Shown here piece by piece: positions 3,221 through 37,930 of a DNA stretch of 64,000 nucleotides. The notes beneath the pieces are model-generated. The model did no database searches. It had not been told where the DNA came from and worked only from the letters and a program-made list of their open reading frames with translations. The stretch is from Rugalucina vietnamica (taxonomy: Eukaryota; Mollusca; Bivalvia; Lucinida; Lucinidae), in NCBI GenBank assembly GCA_964017185.1, contig OZ024879.1, forward strand, positions 46,605,383 to 46,669,382. The letters are read 5' to 3'. Each line of letters starts with the position of its first letter. Within the stretch, counting starts at the first letter, position 1. Position numbers and translations under genes: made by a program.

Positions 3221-5646
3221 TAGCTCACCTGAGCCGTTAGGCTCACAAGGTGAGCTTATAGGATGGCCATGATCCGGCGTCCGTCCGTCGTCCGTCTTCC
3301 GTCCGTCCACAATTTCAAAGATCTTCTCCTCTGAATCTGCTTGGCCAATCAAAGCCAAATTTTATATGAAGCATCTATAGGAAGGGGGAACCAATGTGTA
3401 TATAAGAAATCCAGGTCACATGACCAAGATGGCCGCCATGCCCATATATGGTAAAAACCCTTCAAAAATCTTCTTCTCCAGAACCGGTGGACCGTTTTCA
3501 ATGAAACTTGGCATGAAGCATCAATGGCTCAAGCACTACAATGTGTATATAAATCATGACCCTGTGATGACCTTGACCTATTTTACGGCAAGGTCAACAT
3601 AGGTCGCCAATGCATTTGAATGGGGAAAACTTTTAAAATGTCATTTAAAGTGAAAGTTTTGCAGGAAATGGGCAGTAGGACTGAATATTAATGATTCTGA
3701 AAAAAATTGGACCCCAGGGACTCGTGCCCCCACCCCCAGGGGCAATATACATGTATATCTCCAAAATATTCAAACGTCTTCTCCTCTGAAACCGCTAGGC
3801 CAATCAAAGCCAAATTTTATGTGAAGCATCAATAGGAAGGGGTAACCAATGTATATATAAATAATCCAGGTCACATGACCAAGATGGCCGCCATGCATAT
3901 ATATGGTAAAAACCCTTCAAAAATCTTCTTCTCCAGAACCGGTGGATCGATTTCAACGAAACTTGGCATGAAGCATCAATGGCTCAAGCACTCCAATGTA
4001 TATATAAATCATGACCCTGTGATGACCTTGACCTATTTTACGGCAAGGTCAACATAGGTCGCCAATGCATTTGAATGGGGAAAACTTTTAAAAAGACATT
4101 TGAGGTGAAAATCTTGCAGGAAATGGGCAGTAGGACTGAATATTAATGATTCTGAAAAAAAATGGACCCAAGGGGCTCATGTGCCCCCACCCTGGGGCAA
4201 TATACATGTATATCTCCATAATATTCAGACGTCTTCTCCTCTGAAACCGCTTGGTAAATCAAAGCCAAATTTTATGTGAAGCATCTATAAAATGGGGGAA
4301 TCAATGTATATATAAATAATCTAGGTCACATGACCAAGATGGCCGCCATGCCCATATACGGTAAAAACCCTTCATAAATCTTCTTCTCCAGAACAGGTGG
4401 ATCGATTTCAACGAAACTTGGCATGAAGCATCGATTCCTAAAGCACTCCAATGTGTATATAAATCATGACCCTGTGATGACCTTGACCTATTTTACGGCA
4501 AGGTCAACATAGGTCGCCAATGCATTTGAATGGGGAAACTTTTAAAAAGTCATTTGAGGTGAAAATCTTGCAGGAAATGGGCAGTAGGACTGAAAATTAA
4601 TGATTCTGAAAAAAGTTGGACCCCAGGGGCTCATGTGCTCCCACCCCGGGGCAATATACATGTATATCTCCATAATATTCATACGTCTTCTTTTCTGAAA
4701 CCGCTTGGTAAATCAAAGCCAAATTTTATGTGAAGCATCTATAAAATGGGGAAATCAATGTATATATAAATAATCTAGGTCACATGACCAAGATGACCGC
4801 CATGTCCATATACGGTAAAAACCCTTCAAAAATCTAATCTTCTACTCTGGAACTGGTGGACCAATTTCAAAGAAATTTCGCATGAAGCATCGATGGCTAG
4901 AGTACTATAATGTATATATAAATCATTACCCTGTGGTGACCTTGACCTATTTTATGACAAGGTCAGCATAGGTCACCTATGCATTTGAATTGGGAAAAAT
5001 TTAAAAAGTCATTTGAGGTTAAAATCTTGCAGGAAATGGGTAGTAGGACTGAATATTAATGATTCTAAAAAAGTTGGACCCAAGGGCTTATATGGCCGCA
5101 CCCCGGGCAATATACATGTATATTACCAAAATATTCAAACATCTTCTCTGAAACCGCTTGGCCAATTAAAGCCAAATTTTATGTGAAGCATCCATAGGAT
5201 GGGGGAACCAATGTGTATATTAATAATTTAGGTCACATGACCAAGATGGCCGCCATGCCCATATATGGTAAAAACCCATCAAAAATCTTCTTCTCTGATA
5301 GACTGATTTCAAGGAAACTTGGTATGAAGCATCGATGGCTAAAGTGCTTCAATGTATATATAAATCATGACCCTGTGATGACCTGGACCATGTTTATATA
5401 ATGGCAAGGTCAACATGGGTTGCCTTTGCATTTCAATTGGGAAAACTGTTAAAATGACATTTGAAGGGAAAAGCCAGCAGGAAATTGGCAAATGGACGGA
5501 ATATTGAAGATTCTGAAAAAAAAGAAAATGGCCCTAGGGCTTTATCTGCCCCTGCACTGGAGTTAAATACCATTATATTCAAACATGTTTATTGGTATAT
5601 GCAGCAGATCTCAGGTGAGCGTTTACAGGACCATTGGTCCTCTGGT
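3221..5646 (+). mobile_element. Helentron-like tandem-repeat element (HINE-1), copy 2
   Basis: Same termini as copy 1: 'tagctcacctgagcc' at the left and 'ggaccattggtcctctggtt' at the right. It holds five and a part tandem units; the landmark 'cttctcctctgaaaccgc' or its variants recurs near 3320, 3778, 4232, 4685 and 5145, a period of about 455 bp. The element splits a MITE-B copy, so the empty site can be inferred from intact MITE-B: at most one or two bases of a T-rich stretch are altered and there is no target-site duplication. That fits rolling-circle insertion at T|T. No transposition protein is encoded. Confidence 0.75.
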
Positions 5647-5647
5647 T

Positions 5648-5806
5648 TATTTTTGCTCCAAAACATAGTGGGTACTCATTAGAACCCACAATGTGTGAGC
5701 AAAAATACTAAAATATCACAATTTTTCTACTCAAATTTTCACTTTTCACTTTTAAAGGTGGAAAAAATCTCTGTATATTGCATAGGCAAGTTTTCGTAAT
5801 GTGCAG
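5648..5806 (-). mobile_element. MITE-B, right piece of an interrupted copy
   Basis: It continues MITE-B from 'atttttgctccaaaacatag' through a shortened 'gggtactcattagaacccac' hairpin to the terminus 'gcaagttttcgtaatg'. Joined to 3160-3220 it makes one copy with the Helentron-like element inserted. Confidence 0.65.
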
Positions 5807-5854
5807 AGTACAAAGCACCTCTGGAAATTAAATGTAAAAACCTAATTTATTTGT

Positions 5855-6030
5855 TTTTGAGGTTTAACATCTCAGTAATGTTGGGATGGAGCCACCTGTT
5901 TCTGGGTATAACAAGTACTCTTGAGAGTTAATATGTCTTGCTCAGTGACAAAACATGGTGCACATTGTGGAGAATAGAATATAGAACCTCTTGATTCAAA
6001 GGGTTGCACTACCAACAGGCCATGGCACTA
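5855..6030 (+). repeat. Dispersed repeat fragment ('tgtcttgctcagtgac' family)
   Basis: The string 'gttgggatggagccacctgt ... gagagttaatatgtcttgct ... gacaaaac' recurs in variant form near 17530-17600, 17810-17870, 18890-18970, 19425-19510, 27975-28040 and 30545-30610, usually followed by 'ccactaggcca'-like sequence. It is a short interspersed repeat; I cannot place it in a named family. Confidence 0.5.
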
Positions 6031-11880: not shown

Positions 11881-13866
11881 ACCAGAGGACCAATGGTCCT
11901 GTAAACGCTCACCTGAGTCTGCTGCATATACCAATAAACGTTTGAATATTATGGTATTTAACCCCAGTGCAGGGGCAGATGAAGCCCTTGGGCCGTTTTC
12001 TTTTTTCAGAATATTCAATATTCTGTCCATTTGCCAATTTCTTGGCTCTTGCTGGCTTTTCCCTTCAAATGACATTTTAACAGTTTTTCCCATTCAAATG
12101 CATGGGCAACCCATGTTGACCTTGCCATAAACTTGGTCAAGGTCATCACAGGGTCATGATTTATATATACATTGTACATGTAATACTTTAGCCATGGATG
12201 CTTCACGCCAAGTTTCATTGAAATCAATCTATTGGTTTCAGAGAAGAAGATATTTGAAGGTTTTTTACCATATATGGGCATGGCGGCCATCTTGGTCATG
12301 TGACCTAGATTATTAATATACACATTGGTTCCCCCATCCTATAGATACTTTACATAAAATTTGGCTTCAATTGGCCAAGTGGTTTCAGAGGAGAAGATGT
12401 TTGAATATTATGGTAATATACATGTATATTGCCCCGGGGTGTGGGCATATGAGCCCTTAGGTCCATTTTCTTTTTCAGAATCATTAATATTTAGTCCTAC
12501 TACCCATTTCCTGCAAGATTTTCACCTCAAATGACTTTTTAAAAGTTTTCCCCATTCCAATGCATTGGCGACCTATGTTGACCTAGTCGTAAAATAGGTC
12601 AAGGTCACCACAGGGTCATGATTTATAAATACATTGAAGTACTGCAGCCATTGGTGGTTCATGCCAAGTTTCTTTGAAATCGGTCCACCAGATTCGGAGA
12701 AGAAGATTTTTGAAGGGTTTTTACCCTATATATGGGCATGGCAGCCATCTTGGTCATGTGAACTAGATAATTTATATAAACATTAATTCCCCCATTCCAT
12801 AGATGATTCACATAAATTGGCTTTGATTCGCCAAGCGGTTTCAGAGGAGAAGATGTTTGAATATTATGCTAATATACATGTATATTGCCCCGGGGTGGGG
12901 GCATATGAGCCCCTGGAGTCCAGTTTTTTTTTCAGAATCATTAATATTCAGTCCTACTGCCCATTTCCTGCAAGACTTTCACTTTAAATGACATTTTAAA
13001 AGTTTTCCCTATTCAATTGCATTGGCGACCTATGTTGACCTTGCCGTAAAATAAGTCAAGGTCATCACAGGGTCATGATTTATATACACATTGTAGTGCT
13101 TGAGCCATCAATGCTTCATGCCAAGTTTCGTTAAAATCAGTCCACCGGTTCTGGAGAAGAAGATTTTTGAAGGGTTTTTAACATATATGGGCATTGCGGC
13201 CATCTTGGTCATGTGACCTGGATTATTTATATATACATTGATTACCCCTTCCTATTGATGCTTCACATAAAATTTGGCTTTGATTGGCCAAGCGGTTTTA
13301 GAGGAGATGATGTTTGAATATTATGGTAATATACATGTATATTGCCCCGGGGTGTGGGCATATGAGCCCCTGGGGTCCATTTATTTTTCAGAATCATTAA
13401 TATTCAGTCCTACTGCCCATTTCCTGCAAGACTTTCACTTTAAATGACTTTAAATGACATTTTAAAAGTTATCCCCATTCAAATGCATTGGCGACCTATG
13501 TTGACCTTGCCGTAAAATAAGTCAAGGTCATCACAGGGTCATGATTTATATAAACATTGTAGTGCTTGAGCCATCGATGCTTCATGCCAAGTTTCGTTGA
13601 AATCAGTCCACCGGTTCTGGAGAAGAAGATTTTTGAAGGGTTTTTACCATATATGGGCATGGCAGCCATCTTGGTCATGTGACCTGGATTTCTTATATAC
13701 ACATTGGTTCCCCCTTCCTATAGATGCTTCATATAAAATTTGGCTTTGGTTGGCCAAGCGGTTTCAGAGAAGAAGATCTTTGAAATTGTGGACGGACGAC
13801 GGACGGACGCCGGATCATGGCCATCCTATAAGCTCACCTTGTGAGCCTAACGGCTCAGGTGAGCTA
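11881..13866 (-). mobile_element. Helentron-like tandem-repeat element (HINE-1), copy 4
   Basis: Reverse orientation, termini 'accagaggaccaatggtcct' and 'cggctcaggtgagct'. It holds four and a part units with landmarks such as 'gaagatgtttgaatattatg' near 12393, 12850 and 13308, a ~456 bp period. It interrupts the minisatellite ('cactggt' on the left, 'aataatcgagtaccag' on the right). The units resemble copy 2 more than copies 1 and 3. Confidence 0.75.
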
Positions 13867-15188: not shown

Positions 15189-16990
15189 TAGAAATGCGTG
15201 TTTGTAAAACACTATGCCCCCAACCGTATGCTTGTGCCTAAACTGGCAGTTTGTATGATTCATTTATTTCATTCGAATGCAGTCAAATTTAATTTCCTGA
15301 AGAAGCTGTTTGGTTGCGTCTGTTTTGACCTCGATCCAGAAACAGAATGTAAGCTTTTTTGCAGGCGATTTAGAAATGAAGAAGAAATTAAAAAATTGAG
15401 TAATTTTGTCAAAATTTGACAGAGAGTCCTCAAACGTTAATCAGGTGATCTTCTTCTCAGCCCCAACCAGCATACCAAATATGAAGGCTCTAGCTTGCTA
15501 GCTCAAATACGTTTTGAGATATCTTGCACACAAAATTTTCAAAATTTCTTTTCAAAGGGACATTATTCCAACAAGGGGCATAACAAGTACATGAAAAAAA
15601 TACAGGCCAACTATTTTTTCATGAGGAATCTGTATATGAAATTTCAAAACCCTATAATTCACCGTTCAAAGGTTTTAAATTTCACCGAAAAGTGGAAAAA
15701 TCAATCAAAATTTCAAAATTCTGTATTTTTGTAAAAATGTGACGGAAAGTTCTAAAAAGTTAATAAGGTCATCTACTTCTCAGCCCCAACAAGTGTACCA
15801 AATATGAAGGCTCTAGCTTAAATACTTTTTGAGATATCTTGCACACAAGATTTTCAAATTTTGTTTTCAAAGGGACATAACTCACAAAAGGGGCATAACT
15901 TGGCCATACAAAAAAATACGGGTCAACTATTTTATCATAAGGAATGTGTATATGAAATTTCAAAACCCTAGCATTCACCGTTCAAAAGTTTCAAATTTCA
16001 CCGAAAAGTGGAAAAATCAATCAAAATTTCAAAATTCCGTATTTTTGTTAAAAATTTGACAGAAAGTTCTCAAAAGTTAATCAGGTCATCTACTTCTCAG
16101 CCCCAACAAGTGTACCAAATATGAAGGCTCTAGCTTAAATACTTTTTGAGATATCTTGCACACAAAATTTTCAAATTTTGTTTTCAAAGGGACATAACTC
16201 AAAAAAGGGGCATAACTTGGCCATACAAAAAATACGGGTCAACTATTTTATCATGAGGAATGTGTATATGAAATTTCAAAACCCTAGCATTCACCGTTCA
16301 AAAGTTTCAAATTTCACCGAAAAGTGGAAAAATCAATCAAAATTTCAAAATTCTGTATTTTTGTTAAAAATTTGACAGAAAGTTCTCAAAAGTTAATCAG
16401 GTCATCTACTTCTCAGCCCCAACAAGTGTACCAAATATGAAGGCTCTAGCTTAAATACTTTTAGAGATATCTTGCACACAAGATTTTCAAATTTTGTTTT
16501 CAAAGGGACATAACTCAAAAAAGGGGCATAACTTGGCCATACAAAAAAATACGGGTCAACTATTTTATCATGAGGAATGTGTATATGAAATTTCAAAACC
16601 CTAGCATTCACCATTCAAAAGTTTCAAATTTCACCGAAAAGTGGAAAAATCAATCAAAATTTCAAAATTCCGTATTTTTGTTAAAAATTGACGGAAAGTT
16701 CTGAAAAGTTAATCAGGTCATCTACTCCTCAGCCCCAACAAGTGTACCAAATATGAAGGCTCTAGCTTAAATACTTTTTGAGATATCTTGCACACAAGAT
16801 TTTCAAATTTTGTTTTCAAAGGGACATAACTCAGAAAAGGGGCGTAACTCGGACATGAAAAAAAATACGGGTCAATTATTTTTTCATGAGGAATGTGCAT
16901 ATGAAATTTCAAAACCCTAGCATTCACCATTCAAAAGTTAACACACACACAGACAGACAAGCCGAAAGCAATATGCCCTTCCAACTTTTT
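15189..16990 (+). mobile_element. Tandem-repeat element with 316 bp units (HINE-2)
   Basis: A unique leader ('tatgcccccaaccgtatgc', then 'gatccagaaacagaatgtaa') is followed by five tandem units. The landmark 'aggtcatctacttctcagcc' or its variants falls near 15441, 15765, 16083, 16399 and 16715, a period of about 316 bp. The right end is the hairpin 'ccaactttttcaaagttgg' followed by 'gggcataaa'; 'atgcccccaac' near the start is inverted to 'gttgggggcat' at the end. A truncated relative lies at 35413-35940. The design parallels HINE-1; the Helentron assignment is an inference. Confidence 0.7.
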
Positions 16991-28200: not shown

Positions 28201-29751
28201 ATATCCCTTTTCCAGAATTACAATGGTACTTGCCAATGACTGATCTGAAGGCTTTGCCGTTGTTTCTGGCGTATCCAGCCATCCTGGTCTGCAGCGCCAC
28301 CTGGGCTTCAGGTACACTGGGGCCGACATCTCGCGGCTTGGGGACGTCAATATGGTTGAAACTACGAGTGTAGGTGACGCAGAAGTTGGTGGACCCCACA
28401 GGATAGCTACACTGTAAAAGAGAAGGAAAAATATAAGTCCTTAGGTTAAAGTGCAGAAAAAAACAATAGGCAATGAATTTTACCAAAAATTTAACACCTT
28501 TTCACAAGTTCTCATCTCAGTACATGTATAGCTATATAGGTATGAGACGCGATGCCAGAAAACCGGTCTACGGGGTTTCCGACCAGGAGCCACACAAACC
28601 GGCCTGTACAGTCACAGAAGCAGGCTTTAGGCTTAGAACTTCGTATTTACGTAGAGGAGGAATTTTACTATCCGTGTAGCAAAAACAAAGGCGCTGATCA
28701 GTGTGCAGTTACTGCACAGGCTCGGATGATCTGCGCCTTTGTTTTCGCATCTATATAGGCAAAAAACAGACTTTCTCAAGACACGGCTCGTATTAAGACT
28801 GCAAAAAAAGCCTTTTGTTTTTATTACTTTCTTAAGATGTTGGTTCGATGAGTTATTGCTTTAAGTCCCAATCAACAATTTTTCTGTCATGTCAGGACAA
28901 CTACCTTGGTTGTATCAATACAATGGGGATTAAAATTACCATATTTCTTCTAATTAGGGCACATAAAGTAAACATATCTCACCTTTTATATCGTAAAACT
29001 GGGGTATACCTATTTTTAGGTATTAATGTTAATGTTACGTACCTGTGGGTTTTCACAAAGAACAATGGCCTCATCTAGATTGAGCTGGTATGAGTGGAGG
29101 AAGCTCCTCTTGTTGTTAACTTGCTCACCTTGCTCACCTTTTATATATAGTAAGACTGAGGTCTACCTATTTTTCTTATTTTTGATCCAAAGCATGGATT
29201 GTGGGTACTCGTAGAGGCGGTTCTAACGTGTACCCATAATCAATGTTTTGAGCATAAATTGTAAAAACATCAAATTTTTTCCAATGAAATTTTCAATTTT
29301 CACAGCTGAAAAAAGTCGCTGTAAAAATGTATAATTTTTCACCAATGAATTTTTCAATTTTTACAGCTGAAAAAAGTCTCTGTATATTTCATGGGTAAGT
29401 TTTCGTAATGATCGTCATGTGTTGCAAGAAAGAAACAGCCTGGTAACCAAAAGCAAGATTTTAATGTAATGCTACATACCTGTGGGTTTTCACAAAGAAC
29501 AATGGCCTCATCTAGGTTGAGCTGGTATGAGTGGAGGAAACTCCTCTTGTTAGTAGCTTGACAAAGTAGACATAGCTCACCTTTTATAAAGTAAAACTGG
29601 GGGATACCTATTTTTAGGCATTACTGTTAACGCTACTTACCTGTGGGTTTTCACAGAGAACAATGGCCTCATCTAGGTTGAGCTGGTATGAGTGGAGGAA
29701 GCTCCTCTTGTTATTAGCTTGACAAAGTAGACATAGCTCACCATCGGTCAT
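23240..29751 (-). CDS. USPL1: USPL1-like SUMO isopeptidase (five-exon gene model)
   Basis: Join of 29751-29641, 28411-28234, 27743-26486, 26076-25916 and 25290-23240, about 1252 residues (human USPL1 is about 1090). All four junctions keep phase. Family role, from knowledge: a nuclear SUMO-specific cysteine protease linked to Cajal bodies, with an N-terminal cysteine-rich segment and a USP-like fold. Seen here: CLLCQ in exon 1; NPQ|CSYPVG across junction 1, like the human ENLQC-type segment; QWRNKEALCWLD with the candidate nucleophile Cys (codon 27186-27184); two Cys pairs near the end of exon 3 (CSKCG, CALCG); HFTEGLP in exon 4; NPDHFIAW with the candidate His; WLLCDDL with the candidate Asp on exon 5. 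The long C-terminal exon is Asn/Ser-rich with no recognised domain. Whether ATG 29751 is the true start is unsure: it directly follows an acceptor-like 'tttgcag', so a 5' exon may exist. Confidence 0.85.
25669..25902 (-). mobile_element. MITE-A in a USPL1-like intron
   Basis: Full-length reverse copy with termini 'gagccaccgcatgggaaaac' and 'tcttgcgtctcggctc' and hairpin arms 'aacaaaggcgcagatcagct' / 'agctgatcagcgcctttgtt'. It sits 13 bases from the donor of exon 4. Confidence 0.8.
25916..26076 (-). CDS. USPL1: USPL1-like exon 4, catalytic His
   Basis: The first codon is split (CA|G) and the exon reads LSDCLLLHFTEGLPHNNWRK to HFIAWLRDPT. The acceptor is 'tctgttttcag', the donor G|GTACAA. NPDHFIAW carries the candidate catalytic His. 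Confidence 0.85.
26486..27743 (-). CDS. USPL1: USPL1-like exon 3, catalytic Cys and zinc-type cysteines
   Basis: About 418 codons. The acceptor is 'ctgtttcag' and the donor A|GTAAGT. A low-complexity Asn/Ser-rich stretch leads to FFTYPKKFIQWRNKEALCWLD, where ALCWLD is the protease Cys box. The end holds QCSKCGY and KSCALCG, two CxxC pairs that probably bind zinc as in the USP fingers. Confidence 0.85.
27955..28080 (+). repeat. Dispersed repeat fragment in a USPL1-like intron
   Basis: The text 'aaaccagtactttggcaagt' followed by 'tgtatcttgctcatggacaa' and 'ctatcactaggccacc' matches the family at 5855-6030. Confidence 0.45.
28234..28411 (-). CDS. USPL1: USPL1-like exon 2
   Basis: Begins CSYPVGSTNFC after 'ctcttttacag' and ends FRSVI plus one base. 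Only the donor at 28233 (G|GCAAGT, a GC donor) keeps the frame into the strong acceptor of exon 3. A GT donor four bases on ('aa|gtacca') would need a weaker acceptor, 'tcagag', inside exon 3. The end coordinate therefore depends on this choice. Confidence 0.7.
28542..28792 (+). mobile_element. MITE-A in a USPL1-like intron
   Basis: Blocks in order: 'gagacgcgatgccagaaaac', 'ggggtttccgaccagg', 'cacaaaccggcctgtacag', the hairpin region 'aacaaaggcgctgatcag', and the end 'caagacacggctc'. The hairpin is partly mismatched. Confidence 0.75.
28957..28983 (-). pseudogene. Truncated duplicate of USPL1-like exon 1 (copy D)
   Basis: Only the first part of the exon is left ('ggtgagatatgtttacttta' against 'ggtgagctatgtctactttg' in copy A), again preceded by the MITE-B-like 'agttttacgatataaaa' fragment. 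Confidence 0.45.
29043..29129 (-). pseudogene. Duplicate of USPL1-like exon 1 (copy C)
   Basis: It reads GEQVNNKRSFLHSY to CENPQ in frame with a GTACGT donor. A 15-base in-frame deletion removes the CLLC cysteine pair. A MITE-B copy (29135-29411) separates it from copy B. Confidence 0.6.
29135..29411 (-). mobile_element. MITE-B between USPL1-like exon copies B and C
   Basis: It carries 'tttatatatagtaagactga', a shortened hairpin ('tgggtactcgtagaggc', 'ggttctaacgtgtaccc'), an internal direct duplication of about 70 bp ('acagctgaaaaaagtc' twice), and the terminus 'gggtaagttttcgtaatg'. Confidence 0.7.
29480..29581 (-). pseudogene. Duplicate of USPL1-like exon 1 (copy B)
   Basis: It reads GELCLLCQATNK to CENPQ without a stop and keeps a donor (CAG|GTATGT), but lacks the MTD codons and the pyrimidine-rich acceptor. 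Upstream is a MITE-B-like fragment ('gttttactttataaaaggtg'). It differs from copy A by only a few bases. It could be spliced only if the weak 'aaaag' acceptor is used. Confidence 0.65.
29641..29751 (-). CDS. USPL1: USPL1-like exon 1 (copy A)
   Basis: Thirty-seven codons start MTDGELCLLCQANNK and end CENPQ, in phase 0 with a GTAAGT donor. The preceding 'tatttgcag' is a good acceptor, so the ATG may be internal to a longer message. The CxxC pair and the NPQ|CSYPVG junction resemble the cysteine-rich N-terminal part of vertebrate USPL1. Decayed copies of this exon follow at 29480-29581, 29043-29129 and 28957-28983. Confidence 0.75.
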
Positions 29752-29817: not shown

Positions 29818-29992
29818 TATTTGAGCCGTGTCATCAGCACCTTTGTTTTCGCTACACAGATAGTAGAATACATCTACTTTCTAAAATCAAAATTTCAAAC
29901 TTCTAGCCATCTTCTGTGCTTGTATGGTGCGGTTTGTGTTGGACCTGTTCAAAAAACACATTGTTCAATGGTTTTTCTATTGACTCAAATGA
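29818..29992 (-). mobile_element. MITE-A with internal deletion
   Basis: The terminus 'tgagccgtgtcat' is joined directly to 'cagcacctttgttttcgcta', so one hairpin arm is lost. The rest of the reverse-order blocks run to 'tttttctattgactca'. Confidence 0.65.
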
Positions 29993-35979: not shown

Positions 35980-36965
35980 TTTGGCCCCTGTTGTGTCTGG
36001 TGGCCCACAGGGCACCGTTCTCGGTCCATTGTTGTTCTCCTTGTACATAAATGACATACCCGTTGGCATTGACTCTCAAATCAGGCTTTTTGCTGATGAC
36101 TGTGTTTGTTACCGTGAAATTAAAACAGTTGAAGAAACATTGAAACTTCAGAAAGACATTGACAAATTAGTGAGCTGGGTCCGAAAATGGGGCATGAGAT
36201 TTCAACTTGGATGCAGTTGGCAAATAAGCGGATTAATAAATTAGAGGCCTCCCACACCCTCGAGGATACAGTATTGAAAAATGTTGATAGCATTAAATAT
36301 CTAGGTGTAACAATTACAAATGACTTGATGTGGAATATCCATATCATCAATATCTGTACTAAAGCCAACAGAACACTTGGATTCTTGAGGAGAAACATAT
36401 TTTCTTGTCCCCAAGATGTTAAAGAAGCAGCTTATAAAGGACTGGTGCGCCTAGTCCTGGAATATGGAAGTTCTGTTTGGGATCCTCATACTTAATGCCT
36501 CCAGGAGGATTTGGAGAAGGTACAGAATCGTGCTGCTAGATTTGTAACTAGGGATTATACTTTCGAGGAAGAAAGTATGACTGGCATTCTTGAACAACTG
36601 ATACTCAAATGGGAATCTCTCAAGAAAAGGAGGAATCGACTTCTATTGCTATACAAAGGTCTGAGGGGTAATGCCAGAATACCTACAGATGACCTTATCC
36701 CCCCAAGACTAGGCGTTGTAGAAATAGTCACTCCCAGGCATTTCAGCTTCCATCTGCTTGTACAGAGGCCTATAAAAGTAGTTTCTTTCCCCAGACAACC
36801 AGGGACTAGAATGTTCTCCCTGACTCTCCGTTTTCTACTGCTGAAATTTCAGATGATAGTGTGTCCACGTTCGCTTCACTCGTGCGTTCTAGGGACTAAT
36901 TTCTCCCAAATCCGAACCCCTGGTGAAATAATGTCATTTGGCGTGTCACAAGTAAACTATTCAGA
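35980..36965 (+). pseudogene. Jockey/CR1-type LINE reverse transcriptase remnant
   Basis: Conceptual pieces read GPQGTVLGPLLFSLYINDIP (RT fingers/palm block), RLFADDCVCY (the catalytic FADD box), then, after a frame change, SIKYLGVTI, LGFLRRN, YKGLVRLVLEYGSSVWDP and, after an in-frame stop at 36493, VQNRAARFVTRDY. The 5' half of the LINE, including the endonuclease, is missing. At least one frameshift (near 36220) and one stop show that it is dead. Confidence 0.8.
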
Positions 36966-37163
36966 TTCAAATTCTTATTTTTGCTACAAAACATAGATTG
37001 CGGGTACTCGTTTTAACCGCCTCGGCGAGGTGGTTCTAACTTGTACCCTTAATCTATGTTTTGAGCAAAAATATTAATAATATCATTTTTTCTACTGCAA
37101 ATTTTCATTGTTTTACAACTTTTAAAATCTCTGTATATTGCATGGGCAAGTTTTCGTGATGGA
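36966..37163 (-). mobile_element. MITE-B copy
   Basis: It carries 'caaaacatagattgcgggta', 'gcctcggcgagg' as the hairpin loop region, 'gtacccttaatctatgtttt', and the terminus 'gcaagttttcgtgatg'. The opposite terminus is absent. Confidence 0.7.
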
Positions 37164-37205
37164 ATATGAACAAGTTCTATGTTGCGTGAAAATACAACTC
37201 ATATA
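37164..37205 (+). repeat. Repeat E, piece 2
   Basis: 'gaacaagttctatgttgcgt' followed by 'gaaaatacaa' matches the reverse complement near 63610-63580 ('accaagttctatgttgtg'). Confidence 0.45.
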
Positions 37206-37930
37206 ACTCACATATCCTCGACACCAAGATCAGGCTAGATAGCCTCTGTAGGTGCATTCTTGTCGTAGTCTCTTGGTTTTGGTCCGGGACTGTAGCACCA
37301 GGGACTAAACTTATACGAGTGTTTTTTTCCAAAACACATTTTTAAAACCGTGATTTGAATCAGTTCAGGGAGGGTGCCATGACTACATGTTGGGGTAAAG
37401 CGTTCCAAGAGTCTATCACTCTTAGACTGAAACTGTTGGATCTGATTTTTAGCCTATGCTGTTTCCTGGCTAGTTTAAATTGATGTCCCCTTGTCACAGT
37501 GTAAGTTGGAAAAGCGAACAGATTGTCCTTGTCGATTTTGTCGATGTTGTGCATTATTTTATAAACTTCTACTAGGTCAGCTCTTTCACGTATGTATTCT
37601 AGTGACGGCAACCCCAGTTGTCTTAGCCTTTCAAGGTATGATAGATTTTTAACACTGGTTACCAATTTTGTGGCTCGCCTCTGAACATTCTCGATTGCTA
37701 TCATATCCTTCTTGAACAGTGGAGTGCAGACAGTTGTTGCGTATTCCAAGTGTGGTCTGACAATGGTTTTGTAGAGGTTGTGGAACATGTCATGGTCCAT
37801 GTATGTGAAAGTTCGAAAGATTATTCCCAGGTTTCTGTTTGCTTTATTTACTTTTTCATGTATATGTTTACTGAAGTTCAAAGATTGATCAATAATAACA
37901 CCAAGGCCTTTTTCACTAGATACTTTCTCA
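37206..37930 (-). pseudogene. LINE 3' end: reverse transcriptase C-terminal remnant
   Basis: One continuous frame from about 37925 to 37360 reads EKGLGVIIDQSLNFSKHIHE, IFRTFTYMD, RPHLEYATTVCTPLF, VQRRATKLV and SWNALPQHVV, the typical C-terminal region of jockey/CR1-type polymerases. The upstream RT core is absent (5' truncation). It differs from the neighbouring LINE fragments and so is a separate insertion. Confidence 0.8.

Follow-up and report, generated by a model that had tools for sequence, protein, structure and literature searches.

Exons duplicated in tandem that are functional are spliced into transcripts, for which both splice sites are needed, and a second relevant class of event is the repeat-associated partial tandem duplication, which arises by illegitimate join. 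In PMC9013439, each exon was aligned to the gene that contains it in order to find unannotated tandem copies, and targets were filtered out if their overlap with annotated repeats exceeded 10%; PMC9741552 deals with substitutions in human tandem duplicated exons. For the SUMO isopeptidase USPL1, PMC8983731 gives Cys236, His456 and Asp472 as the catalytic Cys-His-Asp of the human protein, assigns the zinc site of the structure to the catalytic domain's fingers, and describes the extensions as disordered and without evident globular domains. The locus considered here lies in a 64,000-nucleotide stretch of Rugalucina vietnamica DNA (the window), within which a USPL1-type gene holds copies of its first recognisable coding exon (exon A) in tandem within the parent gene, as in the tandem exon duplications described in two of these sources (PMC9013439; PMC9741552). 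The array is most likely ordinary and explained, being a kind of genome debris already known. The reading preferred here, at a probability of about 0.8, is that it represents the inert debris of a tandem duplication, consisting of 5'-truncated, acceptor-less exon copies in a whole-looking USPL1-type gene.

The host gene occupies positions 29751-23240 on the minus strand and appears whole, with five exons that join in frame into 1252 codons and with all introns of the gene model in frame. Exon A (29641..29751, minus strand; MTDGELCLLC...LCENPQ, ending in phase 0) has its ATG directly behind the acceptor (TTTGCAG/ATG) and carries the donor CAG/GTAAGT, exon 2 (28234..28411, minus strand; CSYPVG...) has the acceptor TTTTACAG and a GC donor (GCAAGT), and exons 3-5 (27743-26486, 26076-25916 and 25290-23240, minus strand) encode the Peptidase_C98 domain and the C-terminal part of the protein, ending with the stop codon. 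Intron 28233-27744, which follows exon 2, has an apparent GC start (ATTG/GCAAGT) and is a GC-AG intron in the in-frame model. Three exon-frame pieces match Peptidase_C98 in Pfam, at 127.7, 59.6 and 29.6 bits against a cut-off of 27, which places the gene in that family, and the exon-3 protein matched the solved USPL1 chains in PDB with E values of 5.5e-20 and 1.2e-19. The ORF segments NKEALCWLD, DHFIAWL and WLLCDDL are putative counterparts of the catalytic boxes of human USPL1. Searches for loci related to the exon-3 protein yielded 22 pattern matches in prokaryote contigs and two in viral contigs, none of which was confirmed in either set, as expected for prokaryotic and viral collections. 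Exon A and exon 2 together encode an N-terminal CxxC...CxxxxC-YPxG motif that is visible in the 1252-codon ORF, and a like motif is, we assume, also present in human USPL1. The cysteines of exon A look like half of a putative metal-type motif that is completed by exon 2, and the peptide of exon A plus exon 2 matched no Pfam family.

Behind exon A, the intron holds two copies of that exon (B and C) and a short fragment (D), arranged in tandem on the minus strand. Copy B (29480..29581) is 97.1% identical to exon A over 102 nt (E 2.3e-45) and copy C (29043..29138) 95.1% over 81 nt (E 7.1e-33); each spans exon A codons 4-37, with three and four substitutions from A, respectively, and each has a donor (GTATGT in B, GTACGT in C) and lacks the native acceptor and the ATG. 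An earlier note, made from the sequence alone, had listed three exon copies in this intron, all of which are real, although copy C starts at 29138 rather than 29129, and the 28957-28983 assigned to copy D is convincing for only ~19-22 nt. Copy D (28962..28983) thus amounts to ~19-22 nt from the start of the truncated exon and has no donor, and beyond its first 19 nt it is no better than shuffled sequence, with the score reached by 167 of 500 shuffles. An alternative identity for copy D as the far MITE end, from a 12/16 resemblance counted by eye, was rejected in favour of the better exon match at the start of D. Copy C carries a 15-nt in-frame deletion and a 9-nt tandem duplication (GGTGAGCAA), for a net change of -6 nt; the deletion had been noted previously and is indeed in frame, but it removes the codons LCLLC, one residue more than the CLLC then proposed, and the duplication has to be added to it. 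Exons 2-5 have no second copy within the 64-kb window at E 0.01, and the array is therefore specific to exon A within the window. A repeat search of the window recovered the same exon A family, and Tandem Repeats Finder at score 50 returned no row at the array, owing to its uneven spacing (161 and 437). The same program reported large tandem arrays at 515-1568, 3306-5522, 12063-13791 and 15385-16939, with units of ~455 and 316 bp. In the literature searched, by searches not aimed at the species, the array is unnamed.

The copies are separated by linkers of two forms. The short form is found between A and B (29582..29640, minus strand), where 59 nt comprise donor-side intron and an internal MITE-B piece, and between C and D (28984..29042, minus strand); these two linkers differ at eight positions (8/59, 14%) and have an internal deletion in common. 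The long form, between B and C (29139..29479, minus strand), consists of ~70 nt of intron followed by a stretch of MITE-B that has its terminal CATTACGAAAAC at 29410 and stops at the internal breakpoint, 29139. A repeat unit of ~160 bp with a MITE-B segment had been put forward earlier, of which the MITE piece is present and the ~160-bp spacing applies to A-B, and to linkers A-B and C-D, while the B-C spacing is 437-441, reflecting a linker that still carries most of a MITE. The MITE piece in the unit recurs elsewhere in the window, as seven other aligned copies and two fragments. At the join point, seven of these nine run through into CCCCA and two (36880-37290 and 5560-5930) stop short. Five of the seven aligned copies were inspected at their ends, and a CATTACGAAAAC-type end was present in all five, once with a mismatch; the opposite end matched within three mismatches in three of them (c22, c34 and c52), was only doubtful in c49 and was absent in c58. 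The source of the linkers is a putative MITE, for which terminal inverted repeats, a target-site duplication and dispersed non-coding copies would be expected. The MITE in linker B-C also contains a private direct duplication (29272-29384; 52-nt copies 61 nt apart, 88%) that none of the seven other aligned copies shows.

The origin of the array is reflected in its junctions. The same join, TATAAAA/GGTGAG, is found at 29581, 29138 and 28983, the exon A counterpart being GACCGAT/GGTGAG, and in exon A the GGTGAG is preceded by ATGACCGAT and then the acceptor. Copies B, C and D all start at the same base, in codon 4 of exon A, and are fused to a single internal point of the MITE, whose sequence ends at the join in the array; the earlier suggestion that a mobile element took part in the duplication is borne out by this arrangement, which supports a probable role for the MITE. 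With one breakpoint inside the exon and one inside the MITE, the acceptor, the ATG and the first nine bases are absent from every copy, and the shared breakpoint inside the exon is a direct sign that the acceptor was not copied. The copies were therefore truncated at birth, and the term decayed, previously applied to them, does not describe them. Three alike junctions point to one founding event followed by homologous exchange, and from the deletion common to linkers A-B and C-D we infer that later exchange multiplied the unit.

The simplest path to the present arrangement would begin with a MITE located ~70 nt into the intron that follows exon A. An illegitimate join that was nearly blunt, with one shared base (G), would have fused codon 4 of exon A to the internal MITE point, and the tandem copy so formed would have lacked the acceptor, the ATG and the nine bases at the start of the exon. 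One MITE copy, and with it one linker, would then have undergone an internal deletion, and unequal exchange among the exon copies, in a step of two units, would have produced the order A-short-B-long-C-short-D, with copy D cut down afterwards. In the transcript, the copies would leave with the intron and exon A would be spliced to exon 2. A scenario in which the MITE captured the exon was also considered and is disfavoured, because no MITE terminus is present on the far side and the copies do not lie between two termini.

Splice sites were scored with generic matrices, so the ranks carry more weight than the values. All three donors are GT, as previously noted for B and C; donor A scored 8.7 bits and ranked first of 3515 GTs on the strand, and the weaker donors of C and B scored 6.3 bits (rank 24) and 5.7 bits (rank 31). 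The exon A acceptor, at 3.7 bits, lies at the 98.4th percentile of 3678 AGs and is the best-scoring in the array, and the claim that A alone has both an ATG and a strong acceptor holds; the exon 2 acceptor scored 7.0 bits (99.8th percentile). When the array is compared with a functional tandem exon array, which calls for an acceptor and a donor at every copy, the acceptor was copied in none of the three cases, and the donor is present in B and C and absent in D.

The easiest route, on paper, by which B or C might be used is an acceptor-like site (CTCCACTCATACCAG, cut directly behind it) that is identical inside A, B and C and scored 2.2 bits (95.8th percentile), where the acceptor of exon A itself reached 3.7. 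Through this site, B or C could feed an in-frame 42-nt microexon (LNLDEAIVLCENPQ) into some transcripts, lengthening the spacing between the two cysteine pairs; the resulting ORF would be 1266 aa, and the intron from A would measure 119 nt with B and 556 nt with C. This explanation is considered unlikely, given that its score comes from generic matrices and that the same site inside exon A is presumably ignored there; 42 nt is also short for exon definition. Somewhat more doubtful again is the specific proposal that an acceptor-less copy was recruited through the cryptic internal acceptor as a 42-base microexon doubling the second half of the cysteine motif. If true, such recruitment would represent a route of exonisation from a partial exon duplication, with slower change in the exon than in the linker as its trace.

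The ranks of donors B and C (31 and 24 of 3515) also allow a reading in which they act as decoys, causing intron retention and then a stop, such that the array would tune USPL1 output via nonsense-mediated decay. Retention from A through donor B or donor C does reach a stop after 45 codons, but both decoys are weaker than donor A, which is the first-ranked of the strand and the nearest to the exon A acceptor, and there is accordingly little probability in this reading either.

The earlier note had also proposed that B and C could be alternative exons that change a zinc-type site, whether replacing or following A as whole-length exons, and this now appears weakly placed and very improbable. Copy B as drawn (29480-29581) is not preceded by an AG, the two preceding bases being AA. 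Its junction AG (29580; -1.5) breaks the frame and gives a 59-aa ORF, the junction AG of C (29137; -6.0) gives 57 aa, and the MITE-piece CAG before C (29155; -5.8) gives 41 aa, so that an early stop follows in three of the four uses of the AGs nearest the B and C junctions. The fourth, the MITE-piece CAG before B (29596), keeps the frame and opens an ORF of 1291 aa, but it is weak (-1.5) and would need an intron of 44 nt. Two sites just inside B, 29575 and 29545, are likewise in frame (1284 and 1274 aa), but score -11.8 and -7.9, and 29607 and 29556 lead to 44 and 51 aa; the scores of these four AGs in or before B lie between -11.8 and -0.4. Of the open AGs in copy C that keep the frame, only the internal ones at 29084 (2.2) and 29069 (-6.4) score above -10. 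The frame is thus kept by the weak AG at 29596 and by the internal AG, rather than by the junction AGs, and replacement of A would in addition mean loss of the exon A ATG. Dead exons, the other outcome offered in the earlier note, is the better of its two readings, except that the copies did not begin as whole exons that are now being lost.

An assembly artefact or collapsed alleles, to which tandem repeats are generally prone in assembly, is scarcely credible here, as the exon copies differ by 3-6%, the short linkers by 14% (8/59), and C and the sequence beside B have indels of their own: differing copies with their own indels are unlike a duplicated read path, and neither a recent allele nor an assembly error would be expected to show such a difference between linkers.

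The preferred reading of inert debris was also considered against the pattern of substitution among the copies. Across A, B and C the exon varies at six positions, and at four of these the change is synonymous (p 0.02-0.06, according to the transition bias assumed); leaving out the site where A alone differs gives three of five (~0.10 by hand). Fisher comparisons of the exon differences with those of the short linkers (8/59) gave p values of 0.019 for A-B (3/102), 0.068 for A-C (4/87) and 0.140 for B-C (5/87); in the A-B comparison the linker pair belongs to other copies, and exon A itself is presumably under selection. Set against the B-C flanks (8/51), the B-C exon difference (5/87) gave p 0.071, with a few end bases of that alignment being doubtful homologues. 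Both indels of copy C are multiples of three. The slower change of the exon weakly hints at constraint or conversion, and the same exon-linker pattern would be expected if A alone were constrained or if A converted the other copies. A random substitution in exon A creates a stop only ~4% of the time, and the open frames of B and C therefore carry little weight. Selection on B and C was considered on the basis of the substitution classes and the exon-versus-linker rates, which are suggestive at most.

A second MITE is present around this part of the gene, with inverted copies at 28576-28698 and 29833-29955 flanking exon A and the array. Its arms gave a predicted duplex of -119.1 kcal/mol, compared with a mean of -39.1 and a lowest value of -55.2 over 100 plain shuffles of one arm, and transcripts of the arms could therefore pair strongly. 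Flanking inverted repeats of this type can favour circular RNA, which here would be of exon A. Window-wide, its core motif (at most two mismatches) occurs ten times on each strand, with 16 of these 20 occurrences forming eight close inverted pairs ~50 nt apart.

At the level of the host gene, the Peptidase_C98 domain and the similarity to the solved USPL1 chains are held in common with USPL1, no functional difference at the protein level is claimed, and among the members of the array an evident acceptor and ATG are found in exon A only. If any copy were expressed, the locus would show cleanly how a partial exon duplication can give rise to a microexon. It also offers a caution, in that open frames and GT donors in intronic exon copies are weak evidence for alternative exons at a divergence of a few per cent. 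In contrast to the functional class of tandem exon duplication, this array had the donor side alone copied, with its junction inside a mobile element. The closer likeness is to repeat-associated partial tandem duplication, which likewise has one breakpoint in a repeat and one in unique sequence, a near-blunt junction and later amplification, and from which the array differs only by falling inside a coding exon.
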